Shown here one piece after another: positions 52,012 through 62,853 of a DNA stretch of 64,000 nt. The position numbers and the translations under genes were made by a program. The notes below the pieces were generated by a model, which was given only the letters and a program-made list of their open reading frames with translations, had not been told where the DNA came from and searched no databases. Source of the stretch: Lactimicrobium massiliense (GTDB lineage Bacteria > Bacillota_I > Bacilli_A > Erysipelotrichales > Erysipelotrichaceae); NCBI RefSeq assembly GCF_900343155.1, contig NZ_OUNG01000005.1:205352-269351 (forward strand), given 5' to 3'. Numbering within the stretch: the stretch's first letter is position 1; each line of letters starts with the position of its first letter.

Positions 52012-52039
52012 TGAATTAGTTGGATGTGCAACTAATTCA
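52012..52039 (+). repeat. Perfect inverted repeat in the nrdD leader
   Basis: Eleven-base arms TGAATTAGTTG (52012-52022) and CAACTAATTCA (52029-52039) around a six-base loop. It starts about four bases into the transcript and ends 22 bases before the ATG. No T run follows, so it is not a terminator; it may be an operator or a 5' stabilising hairpin. Confidence 0.75.
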
Positions 52040-52061
52040 TTCTTGCAGTTTGGAGGAAGAT

Positions 52062-54263
52062 ATGAACGTCATCAAGAGAAGCGGCGAAGAAGTCCTGTTC
52101 GCTGCCGATAAGATTAAAGTCGCTGTTACCAAGGCAAACAGTGCAACCAATCCTGAGAATCAGATGCCTTCCAGCACCATTGACACAATTGTTAATGCGG
52201 TTGTGGATAAGTGCAAAGCACTGAACCGCAGTGTCGGCGTGGAAGAGATCCAGGACATGGTGGAAACAGAGATCATGCATGAGGGTGCCTATGCCGTAGC
52301 CAAGAATTATATTACCTATCGGTATGAGAGAGCTCTGGTACGCAAGGCAAATTCTACGGATGAGCAGATTCTTTCTCTGATCGGTCGCAATAACGAGGAA
52401 GCCAAGCAGGAGAATTCCAATAAGAATCCGACTGTGAATTCTACCCAGCGTGACTATATGGCTGGTGAAGTATCCAAGGATATTACCCGCCGTTTCCTGC
52501 TGCCGCCGGATATCATCGATGCACATGAGAAAGGCATCATCCACTTCCATGATGCGGATTATTTCGCCCAGCCGATGTATAACTGCTGCCTGGTGAATCT
52601 GGAAGATATGCTGCAGAACGGCACCGTGATTACGGATACACTGATTGAGAAGCCTCATTCCTTTGCAACGGCCTGCAACATTGCGACACAGATCATTGCC
52701 CAGGTTGCCTCCAACCAGTATGGCGGCCAGACGATCACCCTTTCCCATCTGGCACCTTTTGTGGAGATCAGCCGCCGCAAGCATCGTGAAAACGTTGCAA
52801 ATGAGGTAGAAGCTGCCGGCCTGCATCTGAGTCAGGATCAGATTAATGAGATTGCGGAGCAGCGTGTGCACAAGGAAATCAAGGATGGTGTGCAGACGAT
52901 TCAGTATCAGATCATCACCCTGATGACAACCAATGGCCAGGCTCCGTTCGTGACTGTGTTCATGTATCTGGATGAAGTCGAAGACGGCCAGACGCGTGAA
53001 GATCTTGCCATGATCATTGAAGAAATGCTCAAGCAGCGGATGAAGGGCGTCAAGAATGAGAAGGGTGTCTATATCACCCCTGCTTTCCCGAAGCTGATCT
53101 ATGTGCTGGATGAAGATAACATTCATGAAAACAGCAGGTATTACTATCTGACCAAGCTGGCTGCGGAATGCACTGCCAAGAGAATGGTCCCGGATTATAT
53201 TTCCGCCAAGATCATGAGACAGCTCAAGGGCGATGTTTACCCGTGCATGGGATGCCGTTCCTTCCTGACACCGGACCGCTTTACAGATGCAGGTATTGGC
53301 AATGTCGCAGATGCCGGCAATTATCATCCGGCCAAGCATAAGTATTATGGCCGTTTCAATCAGGGTGTTGTGACCATCAATCTGGTTGATGTAGCCTGCT
53401 CTTCCGGCAAGGATATGGACGCATTCTGGAAGATTTTTGATGAGCGTCTGGATCTGTGCTACAGAGCACTGATGATCCGTCATAACAGACTGCTCGGCAC
53501 ACCAAGCGATGTCGCACCAATTCTGTGGCAGTATGGTGCAATTGCCCGTCTGAAGAAAGGCGAAAAGATCGATAAGCTTCTGTTCAATGGCTACTCTACG
53601 ATTTCTCTTGGCTATGGCGGCCTGTGCGAGTGCGTACGGTATATGACCGGCCATTCCCACACTGATCCGGAAGGAGAAAAGTTCGGTCTTGCCGTTATGC
53701 AGCATCTCAATGATGCCTGTGCAAAGTGGAAGAAGGAAACCAACATTGACTTCTCTGTTTATGGCACACCAATGGAGTCTACAACATACAAGTTTGCAAA
53801 GTGCCTGCAGAAGCGCTTTGGCATCATTCCGGGCGTAACGGATAAGAACTACATTACAAACTCTTATCACATCCATGTCACCCAGGAGATCAATGCCTTT
53901 GATAAGCTCACCTTTGAGTCACGTTTCCAGCAGTTGTCACCAGGCGGTGCGATCTCTTATGTAGAGGTACCGAATATGCAGAACAACATTCAGGCTGTTC
54001 TTGCTCTGATGAAGCATATCTACAATACGATTATGTATGCGGAGCTCAATACCAAGAGCGACTACTGCCAGAAGTGTGGATATGATGGTGAAATTCAGAT
54101 TGTGGAAGACGCCAATCACAAGCTGATCTGGCGCTGCCCGAACTGCGGCAATACTGACCAGAATACGATGAATGTTGCCAGACGTACCTGCGGCTACATC
54201 GGCACCCAGTTCTGGAACCAGGGCAGAACCGAAGAGATCAAAGAAAGAGTCATGCATCTGTAA
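52062..54263 (+). CDS. nrdD: Anaerobic ribonucleoside-triphosphate reductase (class III)
   Basis: Reduces ribonucleotides to deoxyribonucleotides in the absence of oxygen with a glycyl radical. It has 733 aa. An N-terminal ATP-cone (IKRSGEEVLFAADKIKVAV), the catalytic barrel, the zinc Cys pairs near the end (CQKCGYDGE and CPNCGN) and the glycyl radical loop RRTCGYIG are all present. GGAGGAAG precedes ATG 52062. The activase gene nrdG, usually next, is not seen here: a Tn7-like element starts 17 bases after the stop codon. Confidence 0.97.
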   Translation: MNVIKRSGEEVLFAADKIKVAVTKANSATNPENQMPSSTIDTIVNAVVDKCKALNRSVGVEEIQDMVETEIMHEGAYAVAKNYITYRYERALVRKANSTDEQILSLIGRNNEEAKQENSNKNPTVNSTQRDYMAGEVSKDITRRFLLPPDIIDAHEKGIIHFHDADYFAQPMYNCCLVNLEDMLQNGTVITDTLIEKPHSFATACNIATQIIAQVASNQYGGQTITLSHLAPFVEISRRKHRENVANEVEAAGLHLSQDQINEIAEQRVHKEIKDGVQTIQYQIITLMTTNGQAPFVTVFMYLDEVEDGQTREDLAMIIEEMLKQRMKGVKNEKGVYITPAFPKLIYVLDEDNIHENSRYYYLTKLAAECTAKRMVPDYISAKIMRQLKGDVYPCMGCRSFLTPDRFTDAGIGNVADAGNYHPAKHKYYGRFNQGVVTINLVDVACSSGKDMDAFWKIFDERLDLCYRALMIRHNRLLGTPSDVAPILWQYGAIARLKKGEKIDKLLFNGYSTISLGYGGLCECVRYMTGHSHTDPEGEKFGLAVMQHLNDACAKWKKETNIDFSVYGTPMESTTYKFAKCLQKRFGIIPGVTDKNYITNSYHIHVTQEINAFDKLTFESRFQQLSPGGAISYVEVPNMQNNIQAVLALMKHIYNTIMYAELNTKSDYCQKCGYDGEIQIVEDANHKLIWRCPNCGNTDQNTMNVARRTCGYIGTQFWNQGRTEEIKERVMHL

Positions 54264-54279
54264 TAAGAAAGAAACTAAT

Positions 54280-54288
54280 TGAGTTTTT
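54280..54288 (+). other. Candidate transposon terminus
   Basis: TGAGTTTTT precedes the first ACAAT repeat by the same nine bases as TGTGGGCGG in Tn7. Tn7-type ends normally begin TGT; here the third base would be A. The five bases before it (CTAAT, 54275-54279) would be the target duplication, which cannot be tested without the other end. Confidence 0.45.
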
Positions 54289-54467
54289 ACAATTCCAGAG
54301 TGGACAAGACAATTCAAAGTAGACAGCGGACCTGAAAAGGTCCGCTTTTTTATTACTTTCGACAATTTCAAAGTGGATATTTCTTTATCATTTTTAAATT
54401 ATTTACAATTTCAATGTAGATATTGCTATGCTTATTTGCTGGACTATTTACAATTTCAAAGTGGATA
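54289..54467 (+). repeat. Five TnsB-binding-site-like repeats
   Basis: Copies at 54289-54307, 54309-54325, 54362-54379, 54405-54422 and 54450-54467. The best form is ACAATTTCAAAGTGGATA, found exactly in the third and fifth copies; the others differ at two to five positions. All point the same way. The first two are nearly adjacent (20 bases start to start); the others are about 43-53 apart. Layout and the ACAA start resemble the TnsB sites of Tn7 ends. Confidence 0.85.
54325..54351 (+). terminator. Terminator inside the transposon end
   Basis: AGCGGACC / GGTCCGCT with loop TGAAAA is followed by six T. It lies between repeats two and three, 62 bases after the nrdD stop, and stops nrdD transcription before the tns operon. 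Confidence 0.88.
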
Positions 54468-54476
54468 AGCTATAAT
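54447..54476 (+). promoter_or_regulatory. tns operon promoter overlapping a TnsB site
   Basis: TTTACA (54447-54452) and TATAAT (54471-54476), 18-bp spacer. The -35 box and spacer are inside the fifth repeat (54450-54467), so TnsB binding would cover the promoter. AGGAG precedes the tnsB ATG. Confidence 0.7.
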
Positions 54477-54501
54477 TTTTATACCAAATAAGGAGTATCT
54501 A

Positions 54502-56682
54502 ATGAACCATTTTATAAAGCCTGGTCAGATCATAGGAAGCGGAGAAGTCAAATATAGAGTGATCTATGCAACATCTGTTGATTGTGTCCTTTGCGACCTG
54601 AATAAAAAAACATCTCTGAAATTCTACTCTGTTGGTACGGAAGCACTGATAAACATGCTGGATAACGGTACTTACTTGATACTTGACGATGGCGAAGATT
54701 ATCCAAAATTTGATGAGAATGCATTACCTCCGGCGTGGCGAGAGGCTTATCTTCGGAACAAAAAAATTACTAACGCCGTAAGGAATGAATACGGTCCGGA
54801 CTATCTTACATTAACTGGCAAACAGCCTAAACCTGTTCTGGAGAAAATACGTGAAGAAGCAAAAATATCAAAATCCAACATGTGGAAAATCATTATTCGT
54901 TGGATTCAAAGCGGATGCAGAGACTATTCGTTAGTCAATGAACATTATTTTGCCCCAAAGAAAAACGATTTATCTAAAGTAAAAAAAGCTGGTAGAAAAA
55001 CGGAGTCAGGAAGATCTCCTTTTGAATTCACCCCACAGGACATCGCATACGTGGATGAAGCTGTTCATGCTTTTTCTAAAAACCGCATTATGACAATGCA
55101 TGATGCTTATGATACGCTGCTCAATCATTACAAAGTTTTGATGACGCATGAGGACGGTTCCGTTTATCCGGATTTTCCTGCAGACTGTAAGTATCCGTCT
55201 TACAGGCAGTTTATTTATCAACTGCATAAACGACTTTCCAAAAACGATATTGATGTAATAAAGACATCTGCCCGTGAAGTGCGAAATCAGAAACGTGTGC
55301 TTCTTGGCAAAGAGCGCGGCGGGTTAATATATCCAGGAGAACTTTGCGATGCTGACGCAACACCGGTTGATTACTTCCTCGTATCTCAATACAATCCTGA
55401 AAAAATTGTCGGACGTGCAAATATGTATCTGATAATTGACGTATTGTCCGGCATGATCTTTGGGGCAAGTATGTCATTTGAAGATAATTCAAACGCCGCT
55501 GTATTGAATCTGCTGCTGTCGCTTAAGCGTGAACAACGTGACCTTCTTCTCAAAGAAACAGGATTTACTATTTCTTCTGATGATCTATGGCCGACGGATG
55601 TACTTCCGACTAGGTTAAGAACTGATAAAGGCGTTGAATTTACAAGCAAAGAGACGATGAGACGTTTAAAAGAGCTTGGAATTACCGCCGAGCCTGTTCC
55701 TGCAGCAAGCGGCTCCTTAAAAGGCTCAGTAGAAAAAGAATTCCGCCAGTTCAATCTTGCACACGCAGAAGAATTTCTACATGCCGGGCTGATTGAAAAG
55801 CGCAACGATTCAGATCACAAAGAGATGGCTTGTATTTCGATAAGTGGAATGCGCAAGCTGATGGTTTCTTATATCCTTTACCACAACGAACATGTGATTG
55901 AGAGCCGCGAGAGATCCAGAGAAATGATTGAGAAAGAAATTGAGTCTTCCCCAAAATCACTCTGGCAGTATTACAGTGCGAAAAACCCGCTGACACATAC
56001 AATAAACTGCAGCAACGTTGAATATATCTGGAAATTAATGTCGAGCGGAAGCGCTTCGTTGACCAGAAAAGGCATTTATTTTAAAGGACTGTACTATACA
56101 AGCCCACGTGACGTAAAGCTCAATGCACGGCTGATGTCCCTTCAGAAAGCGGAACCTTTCAGCATCCGTTATGATGAAAGCGATGTGGCACATTTGTACT
56201 ATATTTCCGATAATGCCATTGTTCAGGCAATTCTGAATCCATCGGTTCCTGAATACCGCGACTATAACGGGATGACCTGGGACGCATATAATCAGATGCA
56301 TAAAGCAGATATTGAGCAGAGACGTGTCGCCAAGCTGAAAAACAATGTAGAGAAAACAAATCACAGGGAACGGGTCCAGATGATCCTTCAGGAAGGTACA
56401 AAGCTCAAACCAAGTACTAAAAATCTCAAGGCGAACCGAATTGAAGAAAAACAAAGGGATAATAATGATCACAGCGTCTCAGACCGGATCACTGGAACAA
56501 TAACCGGAGCGGAAAATTCCAAGACAATAATCGATGCAGAGTATAAAGAAGTCCACGGTGAACACCCTGCCGATGAAAATACTTCAACGGCTGCTAATCT
56601 GGATGTACCTGTTGTCACAGATAATGATACGGATGATGATATTAAGGCCAAAATGATAAAAATTGCCAGAGGTGAAAAATGA
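54502..56682 (+). CDS. tnsB: Transposase TnsB (DDE integrase family)
   Basis: 726 aa. Cuts the 3' ends of the element and joins them to the target. The N-terminal third is helical DNA-binding (about 90-140 and 170-260). The rve-type catalytic core has Asp285 (CDADATPVDYFLV), Asp375 (LRTDKGVEFTS) and Glu411 (GSVEKEFRQ); the D-to-E gap of 35 residues is the classic D35E spacing. A beta-barrel part follows (about 500-580), then a charged, probably flexible tail (about 600-726) which in Tn7 contacts TnsC. First gene of the operon; overlaps tnsC by four bases. Confidence 0.93.
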   Translation: MNHFIKPGQIIGSGEVKYRVIYATSVDCVLCDLNKKTSLKFYSVGTEALINMLDNGTYLILDDGEDYPKFDENALPPAWREAYLRNKKITNAVRNEYGPDYLTLTGKQPKPVLEKIREEAKISKSNMWKIIIRWIQSGCRDYSLVNEHYFAPKKNDLSKVKKAGRKTESGRSPFEFTPQDIAYVDEAVHAFSKNRIMTMHDAYDTLLNHYKVLMTHEDGSVYPDFPADCKYPSYRQFIYQLHKRLSKNDIDVIKTSAREVRNQKRVLLGKERGGLIYPGELCDADATPVDYFLVSQYNPEKIVGRANMYLIIDVLSGMIFGASMSFEDNSNAAVLNLLLSLKREQRDLLLKETGFTISSDDLWPTDVLPTRLRTDKGVEFTSKETMRRLKELGITAEPVPAASGSLKGSVEKEFRQFNLAHAEEFLHAGLIEKRNDSDHKEMACISISGMRKLMVSYILYHNEHVIESRERSREMIEKEIESSPKSLWQYYSAKNPLTHTINCSNVEYIWKLMSSGSASLTRKGIYFKGLYYTSPRDVKLNARLMSLQKAEPFSIRYDESDVAHLYYISDNAIVQAILNPSVPEYRDYNGMTWDAYNQMHKADIEQRRVAKLKNNVEKTNHRERVQMILQEGTKLKPSTKNLKANRIEEKQRDNNDHSVSDRITGTITGAENSKTIIDAEYKEVHGEHPADENTSTAANLDVPVVTDNDTDDDIKAKMIKIARGEK

Positions 56683-58334
56683 CGTATAAGTATCGCAAAC
56701 TTGCTCCAGGCCAGCATTTATATGATGACTGCAACCTGAATGACGGCGGATTGATCGATGCACAGTATGAAGAATCGGTTGTCGATTCTTATCATGGAAA
56801 TCCTATGGCAGAGTGTATCGGCGGCCCCTATTCCAGAGAAGAACTGATTCAGCTGAATACGCATATTATCCGCATGCCTTCGCAGAAATTGCTGCAGAGC
56901 AGATCATTAGAGACGAATCTGATGTCTGTAGATAACATATTTGATCTTATGGTGGCTATGCCATGGCACTACACCCTTGACGTGGCTTTCCGCTCTGTTT
57001 TACAGCGCACATATGGCATGCGAAAGCTGAGAGTTAACAGTACCACTGGCGTTCCGATTATTGTCAACGCAAAAAAGATTGAATCATTCGTATCTGGACA
57101 GGCAAGAACAAGTGAAGCTGTTCCTGGATTATCGCTCATTGGCATTTCGGGATGTGGTAAAAGCCGTGCACTCAATGAGACATTGAGCCGCATCCCTCAG
57201 GTCGTCGTTCACAACAGAGGCCAGTTCAATCAATTCATACAGATCAATTACATCACTGTGGTTGTAAACAAACAGCGGGACTCCAAGTTTCTATGGGATG
57301 GAATTGCAAAAGCCATTGATGACGCTTTGCAGAATCCGGCTGGCGAATATCAGGCTGCGATGTCAAGAAAAAAGACACTTAGTGAAAAGATAAATTATGC
57401 GGCAAAACTTTGCAATACGTTCAATGTAGGCGTTTTGATTCTCGATGAAATTGAATTTTTGCTTCAGACAGACTTCCGCAAGTCTGCGCTTGAGAATCTG
57501 GTCACGTTCAATAATGTCACAAATACTGCCCTTATGACTGTAGGATCTCAGGAAGCAAAAGAACAGCTTTTTACAACCTTTCAGATGACCAGGCGATTTG
57601 GAAAAGATATTGAGGCGAGTGAATATTGCCGGGATATTGATGCATTTCAGAAAATCTTTCGCCAGTTCTTCATGTTTCAATGGTTCAGCAATCCTGATGG
57701 CTCACCTGTAGAACCGACGGATGCGATGCTTAAAGCCATGTTCTTTGAAACAAAAGGAACCGTAGGTCTGTTAGCTGAAATATATGCCGAAATGAACCGC
57801 ATCTGGCTGATTGAAAAAGAAGATGGGCATGCTCCTTCAGTCGATGAAAAACTGATAGAAAGAGCGGCACTGAGCTATGCAAAAAAGCAGCATAACATGA
57901 TTGAGGGAGAGGCGAATCCATTCGGCCTTTCAAGCGGTGATGAAACAATCTCCGCCTACATAGCTTCACTTGACACAAAATCAAAAGAAACAGAAGAATA
58001 CGCAAACGTCGATCCAAAAGAATTGATTGACCACGAAGAGCTTGTCGATAATGTCACTACAGCAATCCGGCAAAGCACACAGGATTACAGAGAAGATACT
58101 ATTCGCAGTATTGCTGATAAAGCACTGCTTTCCGAAAAGAATATTACTGTCCCACAGGCCGTAGCAAAAGTGATGGCAATTCTTCTCAAAGAAAAGAACG
58201 ACAAAAGACGTAGGCAGTATCCGCAAAAAGCAAAATATGACATTGAGACGGCAAAACGACAGCTTATCGAAAATCAGGAGAACAATACCTTTTCCTTAAA
58301 GGAATTGTCTGAAAACGAAAAAAATAAGGTGTGA
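56679..58334 (+). CDS. tnsC: Transposition regulator TnsC (AAA+ ATPase)
   Basis: 551 aa, close to Tn7 TnsC (555). Links the target-selecting protein to the transposase through an ATP-dependent filament or ring. Walker A GISGCGKS (155-162, Lys161), Walker B VLILDEIE (252-259, Asp256-Glu257), a sensor-like MTVGSQEA (about 286-293) and arginine-finger candidates in TRRFGK (304-309). An N-terminal part of about 120 residues (TnsC/TniB-specific) and a helical C-terminal part with acidic linker follow the family. Stop and next ATG are one base apart. Confidence 0.92.
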   Translation: MTYKYRKLAPGQHLYDDCNLNDGGLIDAQYEESVVDSYHGNPMAECIGGPYSREELIQLNTHIIRMPSQKLLQSRSLETNLMSVDNIFDLMVAMPWHYTLDVAFRSVLQRTYGMRKLRVNSTTGVPIIVNAKKIESFVSGQARTSEAVPGLSLIGISGCGKSRALNETLSRIPQVVVHNRGQFNQFIQINYITVVVNKQRDSKFLWDGIAKAIDDALQNPAGEYQAAMSRKKTLSEKINYAAKLCNTFNVGVLILDEIEFLLQTDFRKSALENLVTFNNVTNTALMTVGSQEAKEQLFTTFQMTRRFGKDIEASEYCRDIDAFQKIFRQFFMFQWFSNPDGSPVEPTDAMLKAMFFETKGTVGLLAEIYAEMNRIWLIEKEDGHAPSVDEKLIERAALSYAKKQHNMIEGEANPFGLSSGDETISAYIASLDTKSKETEEYANVDPKELIDHEELVDNVTTAIRQSTQDYREDTIRSIADKALLSEKNITVPQAVAKVMAILLKEKNDKRRRQYPQKAKYDIETAKRQLIENQENNTFSLKELSENEKNKV

Positions 58335-58335
58335 T

Positions 58336-60735
58336 ATGGCAACATTAGGAAATATTCTGCCCCTGGAAGATGATGAACTGCTCTTCTCATATATCTACCG
58401 TCTTTTGCGGGAAAATGGATATGAAACGACTGGAGATGTATACGAGACATTGTTCCAGCATCATACCAAATACAGTTCTACACATCAAATCCGGTATGAC
58501 ACTTTTGAAGATTTAACCGGCCTGTTTAATCAATTGTCAAATATAGATCCGATTGAATTCTTCCTTCGCACAACAATTTATCCATTTCTTGCACCGCTGC
58601 TTACGTCTGATCAACAGACACAGATAGTAAACGTGGTTTTTCGCGGAAAAGCCCTCTTTCCCGGACTTGTTACCAGTCCTAACACATTCATCAAGCATCT
58701 GCAGATATGTCCAAAATGTCGCGCTGAAATGGTGAAGAAGAAAGGCTTCTTCTGGTATCAGCGTGCCCAAAATCTTCCGGGTGTAACAACGTGTACGAAA
58801 CATGGCGTTAAATTAGTTCGCTTCGTTGGCAAGACGGGACATGAACTGGACGATGAATCTTTTGCAGAAATTCCATCAGATGTTCCTTCCTGTGCCGAAT
58901 ATGATGCATTTGCGGCGACAATGCTGAAAAAACAGCTTGACTGCAGCAGAAAAGAAATTCTTAAGGTCGCACAGGATCATATCAGGGAACTTGGATATTC
59001 CGAAAGCTATCAAAAGATAGAGGAAGATTTCAAGCAATCTGTATTTTTCACAATGTTTACTGGCAATCCAGACCGCTTTTTTCGGATCAGTATGCATAAT
59101 CCGAATAAATTTTATAGCGCGGACGAAATCAATCTGACTGCTGTTTTAGGCTTCCTTTTTGGATCACCGGATAAAATCGTAATTAAAGGTAACGTAAGCC
59201 GATTCGGTGAACTTCTTGACGAATGTGGAACGGATTATGATCTATTTCGGCCGTATCGGGATACGATAGTTGAAATGGAACATAAAGACTGCGGTACACG
59301 ATTTGTAGTAACACCACAAGGCTTTCTTGACGGCTGGTGGTGTCCAAAATGCATGGCAAAGCTGTCGCCACAGGACAATTTTCGTATTATTTTCAAGCAG
59401 AAGCTTGGATCTGATTACGAGCTGAAAAGCGATTTCATCTCGTTATATGATAAAATTACAATTCATCATAAAGTCTGCGGCCGTACATATACGGCACGTG
59501 CACGCAGTATTCTTATCGAAGGCACACAATGCACCTGCCATAATGAAATCAGCGAAACTGAAGCGGCAAAGCGTCTGGGGCCAGGCTTAAAATTGTTGAA
59601 ATACAACGGCATGGACGATATTTCAGTTATTAAATGCGAAAAGTGTGGATCTATTTTTGAAAGACAGCTCCGCCATTTCACAGACAGGCATGGAGTCTGC
59701 CCTATATGCAATCAAAAGCCAGTTCTTACTAGTTTGGATATTGACGATTTCAAGCAGAATGTAAAAGATCTTGTCGGAGATGAATATACCGTCCTTGGCA
59801 GCACATATGCTGCTCATGAAAAAATACCAATGAGGCATAATAAATGTGGTACTGAATTTTTTGTTTCACCAAGTGATTTCAAGATGGGAACACGCTGTCC
59901 AAACTGCCGTTTAATGATACATGACAGAGATTTCTTTAACTTTGTTTCTGACGTATCTAAAGGCAGATACCACGCATACAAAGCCGATAATCCAAAGAAT
60001 TATATTGTGGAAGATACATTGGGAATTCAAAAACCAGTAAAGAGGAATAAGCAGACTATTATTCAAGAGCTGTTAAGGCCTACCCTTTCTCCAATTCTTC
60101 CGCTCGCTGAAAAAGGAACATATAAAATAATCCGCCCAGAAGAAAGACTGCTTAAATATCTGCACGAAAATTATACAGATGACTCTTTGATTCATATTTC
60201 TGAAATTCATTTTGAAAATCGCTCTAAGAAAAACATTTCTGATGATATAAAACATCTTGTTAAGCGAACGTACCTCACAAAATGTGCATATGGCTATTAT
60301 TGCTTCTCGTCATTTCATCCTTCTGAATGGGACAAGATTGAGAGGATTTACATTAAAAATAATGGTCATGTTTTCGGATTTATTTATGGAAACCATTTCT
60401 ATTATCAAGCTGGCTTGACAAATCAGGCTCCCGATTATTTTATGATTTGCACAAACAAAGAAGCCTCTGAACATGGGCGCATCATTAAAGTGTGTGAGAG
60501 TAAAATTCGTATTAAAACGCTGCCTGTTGAAGTCACAGATGATAACTGGGAAATGCTGCAGCTGCTTGATCTGATACAGTATTCATATCATTATGGCTGG
60601 GATATAACAGCATTTATTAAAATCAGAATGGCTCAGCACAAGATCAAATATGAAGATATGCATGCGTTAGCCTATACCGACACGCAGCGCAGAATCCTGG
60701 AAAGGATGTTCGATAATGACAAGACGAGTAAGTGA
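58336..60735 (+). CDS. tnsD: Target selector TnsD/TniQ with four zinc-ribbon modules and an AbiEi-like C-terminal region
   Basis: 799 aa, longer than Tn7 TnsD (508). Residues 1-160 are TniQ: PLEDDELLFSYIYRLLRENGY, and the C-x2-C / C-x2-H finger (Cys125, Cys128, Cys153, His156). Four tandem zinc-ribbon-like units follow with about 60-residue spacing: 316-339 (HKDCG ... CPKC), 377-402 (HHKVCG ... CTCH), 434-458 (CEKCG ... CPIC) and 501-524 (HNKCG ... CPNC). Residues about 594-799 look like AbiEi-type antitoxins: a winged-helix part (VKRTYLTKCAYGYYCF), then GFIYGNHFYYQAGLTNQAPDY, TNKEAS, IRIKTLPVEVTDDNWEMLQLLDL. The C-terminal parts should read the attachment site. The start has AAGGTG upstream. 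Confidence 0.88.
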   Translation: MATLGNILPLEDDELLFSYIYRLLRENGYETTGDVYETLFQHHTKYSSTHQIRYDTFEDLTGLFNQLSNIDPIEFFLRTTIYPFLAPLLTSDQQTQIVNVVFRGKALFPGLVTSPNTFIKHLQICPKCRAEMVKKKGFFWYQRAQNLPGVTTCTKHGVKLVRFVGKTGHELDDESFAEIPSDVPSCAEYDAFAATMLKKQLDCSRKEILKVAQDHIRELGYSESYQKIEEDFKQSVFFTMFTGNPDRFFRISMHNPNKFYSADEINLTAVLGFLFGSPDKIVIKGNVSRFGELLDECGTDYDLFRPYRDTIVEMEHKDCGTRFVVTPQGFLDGWWCPKCMAKLSPQDNFRIIFKQKLGSDYELKSDFISLYDKITIHHKVCGRTYTARARSILIEGTQCTCHNEISETEAAKRLGPGLKLLKYNGMDDISVIKCEKCGSIFERQLRHFTDRHGVCPICNQKPVLTSLDIDDFKQNVKDLVGDEYTVLGSTYAAHEKIPMRHNKCGTEFFVSPSDFKMGTRCPNCRLMIHDRDFFNFVSDVSKGRYHAYKADNPKNYIVEDTLGIQKPVKRNKQTIIQELLRPTLSPILPLAEKGTYKIIRPEERLLKYLHENYTDDSLIHISEIHFENRSKKNISDDIKHLVKRTYLTKCAYGYYCFSSFHPSEWDKIERIYIKNNGHVFGFIYGNHFYYQAGLTNQAPDYFMICTNKEASEHGRIIKVCESKIRIKTLPVEVTDDNWEMLQLLDLIQYSYHYGWDITAFIKIRMAQHKIKYEDMHALAYTDTQRRILERMFDNDKTSK

Positions 60736-61423
60736 AAAGACAAAATTGAAACAGCATCGCAGCGAAGAAGGAGAAAATTACCAGTCCTGGGACAAAGTAA
60801 CAGAATTCTCCGGTAACGTTGGTACGCCAGACGTTTTTACCGATTGGAAATCCGGAAGAACTATGAATTTCCTGTCACAAGGCGAGTTTATGACGTATTT
60901 GATTCTTCGCTGGCAGGATAATGTCGAAACAATATACGAACAATATGCATTGGATCTTAATGAAACATTAAAAATTGCGAACATGCTTGGATATAAACAC
61001 CCACATAACAATTCCACCCGTATGACTACTGATCTGCTTGTGGTTTATACAAACGGTAGCCGACTGGCGCTGTCAGTGAAAGGCAGCTATGACTCGGTGT
61101 TTGGCGATAAGAAAGCTTCTCATCGGGCCATTGAGAAACAGACAATTGAATATATTTATTGGAAACAGCACGGCGTTCCATGGAAGATCATTTTCAAGGA
61201 CAGGGATATCAATGTAACTTATGCAAAGAATATTGAAAGAGCAGTAGGCTTCTATAATCCAATGAACGTAAAAAATAAAACAACGTATTTCATGTATCTT
61301 CTGGCGCATAAGAAAATAGAAATCGATATGACAAAACGTTATAATTTTGCGGCAGAAGCGAAAAAATATATTTCAGACAGTCAGTTTAATGACTTTATGA
61401 AAAATAAAACTGACGCACAATAA
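60716..61423 (+). CDS. tnsA: Endonuclease subunit TnsA
   Basis: 235 aa, a little shorter than Tn7 TnsA (273). Cuts the 5' ends so that the element is excised and moves by cut-and-paste. Restriction-endonuclease-like core: Glu57 (LSQGEFMTYL), Asp106 (RMTTDLLVVY) and Lys122 (LALSVKGSY), matching the E-D-x-K catalytic set. The segment VETIYEQYAL is conserved in TnsA proteins. The C-terminal helical part is present but short. The gene overlaps tnsD by 20 bases and is last, not first, in the operon. Confidence 0.88.
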   Translation: MTRRVSEKTKLKQHRSEEGENYQSWDKVTEFSGNVGTPDVFTDWKSGRTMNFLSQGEFMTYLILRWQDNVETIYEQYALDLNETLKIANMLGYKHPHNNSTRMTTDLLVVYTNGSRLALSVKGSYDSVFGDKKASHRAIEKQTIEYIYWKQHGVPWKIIFKDRDINVTYAKNIERAVGFYNPMNVKNKTTYFMYLLAHKKIEIDMTKRYNFAAEAKKYISDSQFNDFMKNKTDAQ

Positions 61424-62322: not shown

Positions 62323-62853
62323 TTACATACCAAGCTTTTGATGGACTTCTTCTGACCAAGGCAGAAGTCTGTCAGGCATTGTTGTGCAGTCTTCATTGAT
62401 GATCTTTGGAAGTTCTTCCAGCAGGTAGGTGAAGTATGGATACAGTTTTAATCCGTTTGCTTTGGCCGTTTCGACAATGGAATAGATGCCTGCACTGGCT
62501 TCTGCTCCTCTCGGCGTGTCGATTATCACCCAGTTCTTACGTCCAACTGTGAACGGGCGGATAGCGATCTCTGCCGCATTATTGTCCAATGGTACACTCG
62601 CATCGTCCAGGAATACACGAAGATATTTTTCCTGATTCAGAGCATATTGAAGGCTCTTTCCAATTTCTGATGAATTCTCTGTGCTTTCAACTGCTGATTT
62701 GTCTTTCACCCACGCGAAAAACTCATCTACCAGTGGTTTGGTCTTTTCCTGTCTCTTCCGCAGATGTTCTTCTGGCGGAAGATCCTGGATCAAATGTTCT
62801 TCATGGTATATTCTTTGACCGTGATGAAAGATTCCATTATGACAGATTTCCAA
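62323..62853 (-). pseudogene. IS66-family transposase, C-terminal remnant
   Basis: 176 codons matching the end of an IS66 TnpC transposase: LPPEEHLRKRQEKTKPLVDEFFAW, then SVPLDNNAAEIAIRPFTVGRKNW (with the catalytic Glu), then the C-terminal YTYLLEELPKI segment. Full proteins are about 500 residues, and the N-terminal two thirds are not present in any frame upstream. A GTAAGC at 62249, the usual start of IS66 ends, may be the surviving terminus. Confidence 0.85.

Follow-up and report, generated by a model that had tools for sequence, protein, structure and literature searches.

The window analyzed here is a stretch of 64,000 nucleotides from Lactimicrobium massiliense (contig NZ_OUNG01000005.1, positions 205,352 to 269,351), which toward its end carries a Tn7-like transposon directly downstream of nrdD, the gene of the anaerobic ribonucleotide reductase. 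Our subject is the target selector of this element, TnsD, whose C-terminal end consists of a module of the AbiEi antitoxin type. The features of the locus, in window coordinates, are as follows.

52020..54263, + strand: nrdD, anaerobic ribonucleotide reductase, its 3' end adjoining the element (open reading frame; ortholog in G055, a second genome of the genus)
54275..54279, no strand: target-site duplication CTAAT, left copy (sequence; right copy on contig C7 at 1320-1324)
54280..54470, + strand: left end of the transposon (TGA...), containing four TnsB-like repeats of 28 nt at 54281, 54354, 54397, and 54442 (sequence)
54502..56682, + strand: tnsB, transposase (Pfam rve 1e-4 and Mu-transpos_C 0.0038, neither reaching its cut-off; 44% identity by tblastn with the TnsB from G290, a genome of another family)
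56679..58334, + strand: tnsC, AAA+ regulator (Pfam AAA_22 5.2e-11, TniB 8.9e-9)
58336..60735, + strand: tnsD, target selector of 799 aa (Pfam TniQ, PF06527, 7.6e-14, above cut-off)
58360..58815, + strand: TniQ domain of TnsD, residues 9-160 (Pfam)
59206..59910, + strand: zinc-ribbon array of TnsD, residues 291-525 (PHROGs phrog_559, E=4.6e-47; phage tblastn matches)
60136..60315, + strand: winged helix of the AbiEi module, residues 601-660 (AlphaFold model ma8c7e2895532)
60325..60732, + strand: C-terminal, antitoxin-type domain of the AbiEi module, residues 664-799 (PADLOC, alignment, AlphaFold, PDB comparison)
60716..61423, + strand: tnsA, endonuclease (Pfam Tn7_TnsA-like_N 7.4e-15)

The genes at this locus run in the order nrdD, tnsB, tnsC, tnsD, and tnsA, with the start of tnsA overlapping the end of tnsD by 20 bp (60716-60735), and the left end of the element (54280) lies 16 bp past the nrdD stop codon. 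The contig carrying the window (C2) stops where the window stops. Contig C7 opens with the right end, i.e., three matching 27-28-nt repeats in reversed orientation (C7:1190-1317), followed by CTAAT and, 56 bp beyond, by nrdG; we infer that C2 and C7 are neighboring contigs. CTAAT adjoins the TGA/TCA ends on both sides as a 5-bp duplication. Together with the matching repeats this identifies a Tn7-like insertion between nrdD and nrdG. The repeats are putative TnsB sites, named by likeness to Tn7. Assignment of the selector to TnsD is based on its TniQ domain, the operon with TnsA, TnsB, and TnsC, and the 5-bp duplication with TnsB-like sites at both ends.

The nrdD-nrdG interval was compared across 60 genomes of the genus, from which 37 near-full nrdD and 37 near-full nrdG matches were hand-picked with exclusion of weaker or partial rows. 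Both genes were found in 35 genomes, and on the same contig and strand in 21. In 11 of these 21 pairs the genes are 37-118 bp apart, with which the window gap minus the element (75 bp) is consistent. The remaining 10 pairs (G013, G014, G033, G037, G065, G080, and others) are separated by 755 bp to 62 kb with other genes in between, and no tns match was obtained within the stretches read of these wide intervals. Just inside the element, between the TnsB-like repeats, a perfect hairpin (54325-54346, AGCGGACCT/AGGTCCGCT) is followed by a T run, and by eye the elements of G055 and G290 carry comparable hairpins past nrdD; the window hairpin is likely a terminator shielding the tns operon from nrdD transcription. 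Further downstream, the window contains a C-terminal piece of an IS66 transposase (62323-62853, Pfam 5e-27), and an apparent second IS66 piece lies near the start of C7 (L049:569-1006) beside ABC-transporter-like fragments, both judged by eye. A repeated insertion sequence may explain why the contig breaks off within the element.

The N-terminal TniQ domain, the zinc-ribbon array, and the C-terminal AbiEi match define the architecture TniQ - zinc ribbons - AbiEi. The array (residues 291-525), in which four CxxC-type repeats were counted by eye, resembles part of phage HNH endonucleases (phrog_559, 4.6e-47). The first-pass annotation had proposed an AbiEi-like region at the C terminus, and this was borne out: the PADLOC AbiEi model PDLC02236 matched the segment 594-799 (60115-60732) with E=6.9e-27 across 149 residues (residues 605-753; E=1.4e-25 with the whole protein as query), and four more PADLOC AbiEi models matched the C-terminal segment with E<0.003. 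NCBIfam TAA_AbiEi scored 0.0033, far below its own cut-off, and Pfam matched nothing on segment 594-799. PF19570 (DUF6088) left the window row unmatched at E<=0.01 and matched 31 of the 41 rows of the module alignment, so that DUF6088 and AbiEi overlap here, in keeping with the first-pass annotation. The motifs named in that annotation are present and fall on conserved columns; in the alignment with 38 stand-alone relatives, among the rows listed, G[YF]xxG, GLTTQxP, and TxxN of the TnsD module are conserved. An AlphaFold model of the module (235 aa, pLDDT 90.3) shows the expected winged helix followed by a C-terminal domain. Its only PDB entry at E<=0.001 was 6y8q, the AbiEi of S. agalactiae (two chains; TM 0.42/0.51, identity 10%), and 1zel (Rv2827c) likewise aligns across the entire module. 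The last ~200 residues of TnsD (~601-799) are thus a complete two-domain AbiEi/DUF6088-type antitoxin module. What had been described as a captured DNA-binding part does contain the winged helix, but comprises more than a DNA-binding segment, the antitoxin-type C-terminal half being included.

Stand-alone relatives of the module are AbiE antitoxin genes: in the family, 19 of 27 stand-alone AbiEi matches have an AbiEii (PF08843) match 150-298 bp downstream on the same strand. No PF08843 match was found on C2, the contig carrying TnsD, and the TnsD tail is therefore regarded as an AbiEi-derived module and not as an AbiEi antitoxin gene. The same fusion occurs in the proteins P0002 and P0003 (73-77% identity) and in the G055 and G290 TnsDs (25-30%, module only), which argues against a fusion by chance or by assembly.

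Among 315 genomes of the order, TniQ domains were found at 11 places, three of them with a full AbiEi module, namely the window, G055, and G290. The G055 TnsD is 30-31% identical to that of the window (AbiEi 2.9e-28) and the G290 TnsD 34% (AbiEi 4.9e-24). In all three elements, which are those with known flanks, the tns set directly adjoins nrdD; the G055 nrdD ortholog (Pfam NRDD E=2.8e-131) is 91% identical to the window nrdD across 416 aa. In G290, nrdG is encoded on the same strand at a distance of 35.7 kb; the element and surface-protein-like genes (by eye) lie in between, and the far end of this element was not found. Six of the other eight TniQ places were checked (the second G290 copy, G291:C200, G202, G050, G281, and G168:C35; G020 and G168:C38 were left out), and nrdD was present in none of the fetched stretches, the G291 and G202 contigs being only 7.4 and 5.7 kb long. 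A further broken copy without nrdD lies on a 3.7-kb contig (G291:C23). Extension to 392 genomes sampled from the phylum gave full-length matches only in the window's genome and G290.

Several side observations accompany this survey. In G055 (L032) the tns genes run D-A-B-C, versus B-C-D-A in the window, with type I restriction-modification-like genes (by eye) past tnsC. The genome G018 contains an orphan open reading frame (L033:9090-10781) that combines zinc ribbons with an AbiEi match (1.1e-13) but has neither a TniQ domain nor tns genes nearby; in this genome 59 bp separate nrdD from nrdG, and the frame is possibly a relic of such a selector. The TnsCs of G281 and G168 (L084 and L085), from two different families, are nearly identical (branch lengths 0 and 0.007), likely reflecting recent transfer of another Tn7-like element.

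Module number varies among TnsD tails. All nine long TniQ proteins of 1207-1239 aa (P0004, P0005, and P0016-P0022) contain three AbiEi stretches, P0005 being the sole triple-module TnsD with a named source, Lachnospiraceae. The tail of a second TnsD of G290 contains several winged helices of the AbiEi type but no C-terminal domain; four helices were counted by eye, and PADLOC models mark up to three stretches. This TnsD belongs to a second Tn7-like element (L081:8616-17410) of that genome, which is assembled as a single contig. The tnsB match of the element falls into two parts flanking a transposase-like frame (by eye), and the next gene outward resembles an L,D-transpeptidase (by eye). The G202 TnsD ends in one winged helix (AbiEi_4 2.5e-4, below cut-off; PADLOC AbiEi 0.0022). 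In the TnsDs of G050 and G291:C200, the last part is by eye a short segment resembling a winged helix, and the G050 TnsD gave no AbiEi profile match. In the relative P0006, helicase-associated domains (PF03457, at the end by eye) take the place of AbiEi. Hence, the initial impression of one odd fusion has to be abandoned, with two diverged elements of the order sharing it, nine triple-module TnsDs present in public protein data, and a third TnsD bearing several AbiEi-type winged helices.

A module tree was calculated from 49 modules, 11 from seven TnsDs and 38 stand-alone ones hand-chosen from 53 candidates, without the modules of P0016-P0022 and the winged-helix-only tails. All 11 TnsD modules fall on one side of a branch (91/85; in 90% of bootstrap trees), within which the nrdD group with P0002 and P0003 forms a subclade (97/90) and the triple modules another (100/100). 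This topology fits a single event in which an ancestral TnsD acquired an AbiEi gene, with triplication as a later step. Segments of the window, G290, and G055 TnsDs are 25-37% identical to each other; the AbiEi module has thus persisted across deep divergence, at a rate of change similar to that of TniQ and ribbons or slightly higher. The window and G290 pair in the TnsA, TnsB, and TnsC trees (95/95, 95/97, and 99/97), with G055 unresolved in its placement; G168 was omitted from the TnsB tree, as were G290b and G291, and G281 and G168 from the TnsD tree.

Based on these data, we propose with a probability of roughly 0.68 that the AbiEi module is part of the TnsD head binding the nrdD 3' end and thereby sets the place of insertion. 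TnsD would bind the conserved 3' coding end of nrdD via its zinc ribbons and the AbiEi module, the TniQ domain would then recruit TnsC and TnsAB, and these would join the element a short way downstream of nrdD, here 16 bp past the stop codon. For Tn7, glmS recognition is assigned to the C-terminal part of TnsD, and TnsC is said to load where DNA has been distorted, be it by TnsD or by other means (PMC11406308). Both AbiEi domains are reported to contribute charged residues to DNA binding and bending (PMC7319586), and the module may additionally bend DNA as reported for AbiEi at its own promoter; a bending reader would suit the loading of TnsC on distorted DNA. Variation in module number, with three copies in all nine long TnsDs and winged-helix arrays elsewhere, would also suit a DNA reader. 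On the evolutionary side, an ancestral TnsD may have captured an AbiEi gene once, after which the copy number would have changed, up to three full modules in one clade. More tentatively, and with somewhat less than even confidence, AbiEi modules could be units for target reading that can be repeated within Tn7-like selectors, a single captured antitoxin having given rise to a lineage whose address is set by the number (one, three, or winged-helix arrays) and kind of modules, the one-module clade being dedicated to the nrdD 3' end.

Capture of an antitoxin-type protein, as suggested initially, agrees with profile, fold, and tree, whereas the accompanying claim that it serves as the target-reading part reaches further than the data, as the zinc ribbons could read the target themselves. 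This array is the main rival to the proposed function. If it alone reads nrdD, the AbiEi module would be left with dimerization, DNA bending, or contact to TnsC, which we consider unlikely, though clearly the strongest of the alternatives. Its CxxC-type repeats resemble those of phage HNH endonucleases, and two comparisons weigh against target reading by the module: similarity is higher in the ribbons than in the module (37% versus 30% between window and G290, 33% versus 25% between window and G055), and the modules of the window and G055 diverge most strongly where likeness would be expected from a common address. However, G055 has fewer ribbons by alignment and yet also neighbors nrdD, ribbons are likewise present in TnsDs for which no nrdD neighbor was found, and the change in copy number of the AbiEi module fits target reading.

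Autorepression, in which TnsD would occupy the tns promoter in the left end of the element and curb its own expression as AbiEi does for abiE, is far less probable. AbiEi has a known autorepressor role (PMC7319586) and the tns promoter region would fall within the element end, but this region (54264-54501) holds direct repeats resembling TnsB sites. Apart from the hairpin, this region yielded two inverted pairs, weak or short, whose arms lie 63 and 46 nt apart and which are unlike the 23-bp pair of AbiEi operators (PMC7319586), and autorepression leaves the tandem triplication unexplained. Least probable of all is a leftover antitoxicity by which the module neutralizes AbiEii toxins and the element carries an antitoxin function or senses host AbiE: the C-terminal domain, alone sufficient for AbiEi antitoxicity (PMC7319586), is kept and the host genome has four AbiEii matches, but the element's contig has none, the host AbiEi on contig C6 is already paired with its own AbiEii, and the second G290 TnsD keeps AbiEi-type winged helices without that domain.

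Tn7-like elements are known to draw on diverse sources for their target selectors, and genome-insertion tools depend on the step of site choice. If the proposed function of the AbiEi module is true, the reuse and tandem multiplication of a toxin-antitoxin repressor in a protein selector would represent a new source of selector modules, and one copy, three copies, and winged helices only form a natural series for studying how the address is encoded in a protein selector. In the literature searched (TniQ/winged helix, Tn7/nrdD, and DUF6088, with supplementary files and most subscription papers outside this scope) we found no earlier report of a TnsD-AbiEi fusion; for TnsD with AbiEi, PMC8649781 alone turned up, with AbiEii in a cargo table. 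The terms "antitoxin," "winged," and "nrdD" are absent from the main text of PMC10293859, and nrdD was not found among the Tn7-like insertion sites named in the portions of the literature examined.

Compared with known systems, the window TnsD shares with Tn7 TnsD the TniQ core with a long C-terminal region, the position of the element just downstream of a conserved gene, tnsABC, and the 5-bp duplication, but differs in its tail of zinc-ribbon array and AbiEi module and in having nrdD instead of glmS as neighbor. The Lachnospiraceae TniQ protein P0006 shares the core of TniQ and zinc ribbons (29% identity across 75% of the window TnsD), with PF03457 instead of AbiEi (PADLOC AbiEi merely 0.021). 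With the AbiEi/DUF6088 antitoxins 6y8q and Rv2827c (1zel) the module has in common the fold of winged helix plus C-terminal domain and the motifs, whereas it is fused to TnsD, lacks an AbiEii gene on its contig, and would have site choice as its task. A conceptual parallel is TnsF of Tn6022, an inactive tyrosine recombinase serving as selector (PMC10293859), and likewise a DNA-binding protein of foreign origin co-opted for Tn7 target selection; TnsF, however, works with a separate TniQ partner, bar one reported fusion (PMC10293859), whereas the window module is fused to TnsD. TnsD tails of Tn7 and CAST elements are described as modular with multiple HTH domains (Faure et al. 2023, PMC10293859). 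Modular tails and co-opted selectors are thus known, and the new element is the AbiEi module within the TnsD tail.
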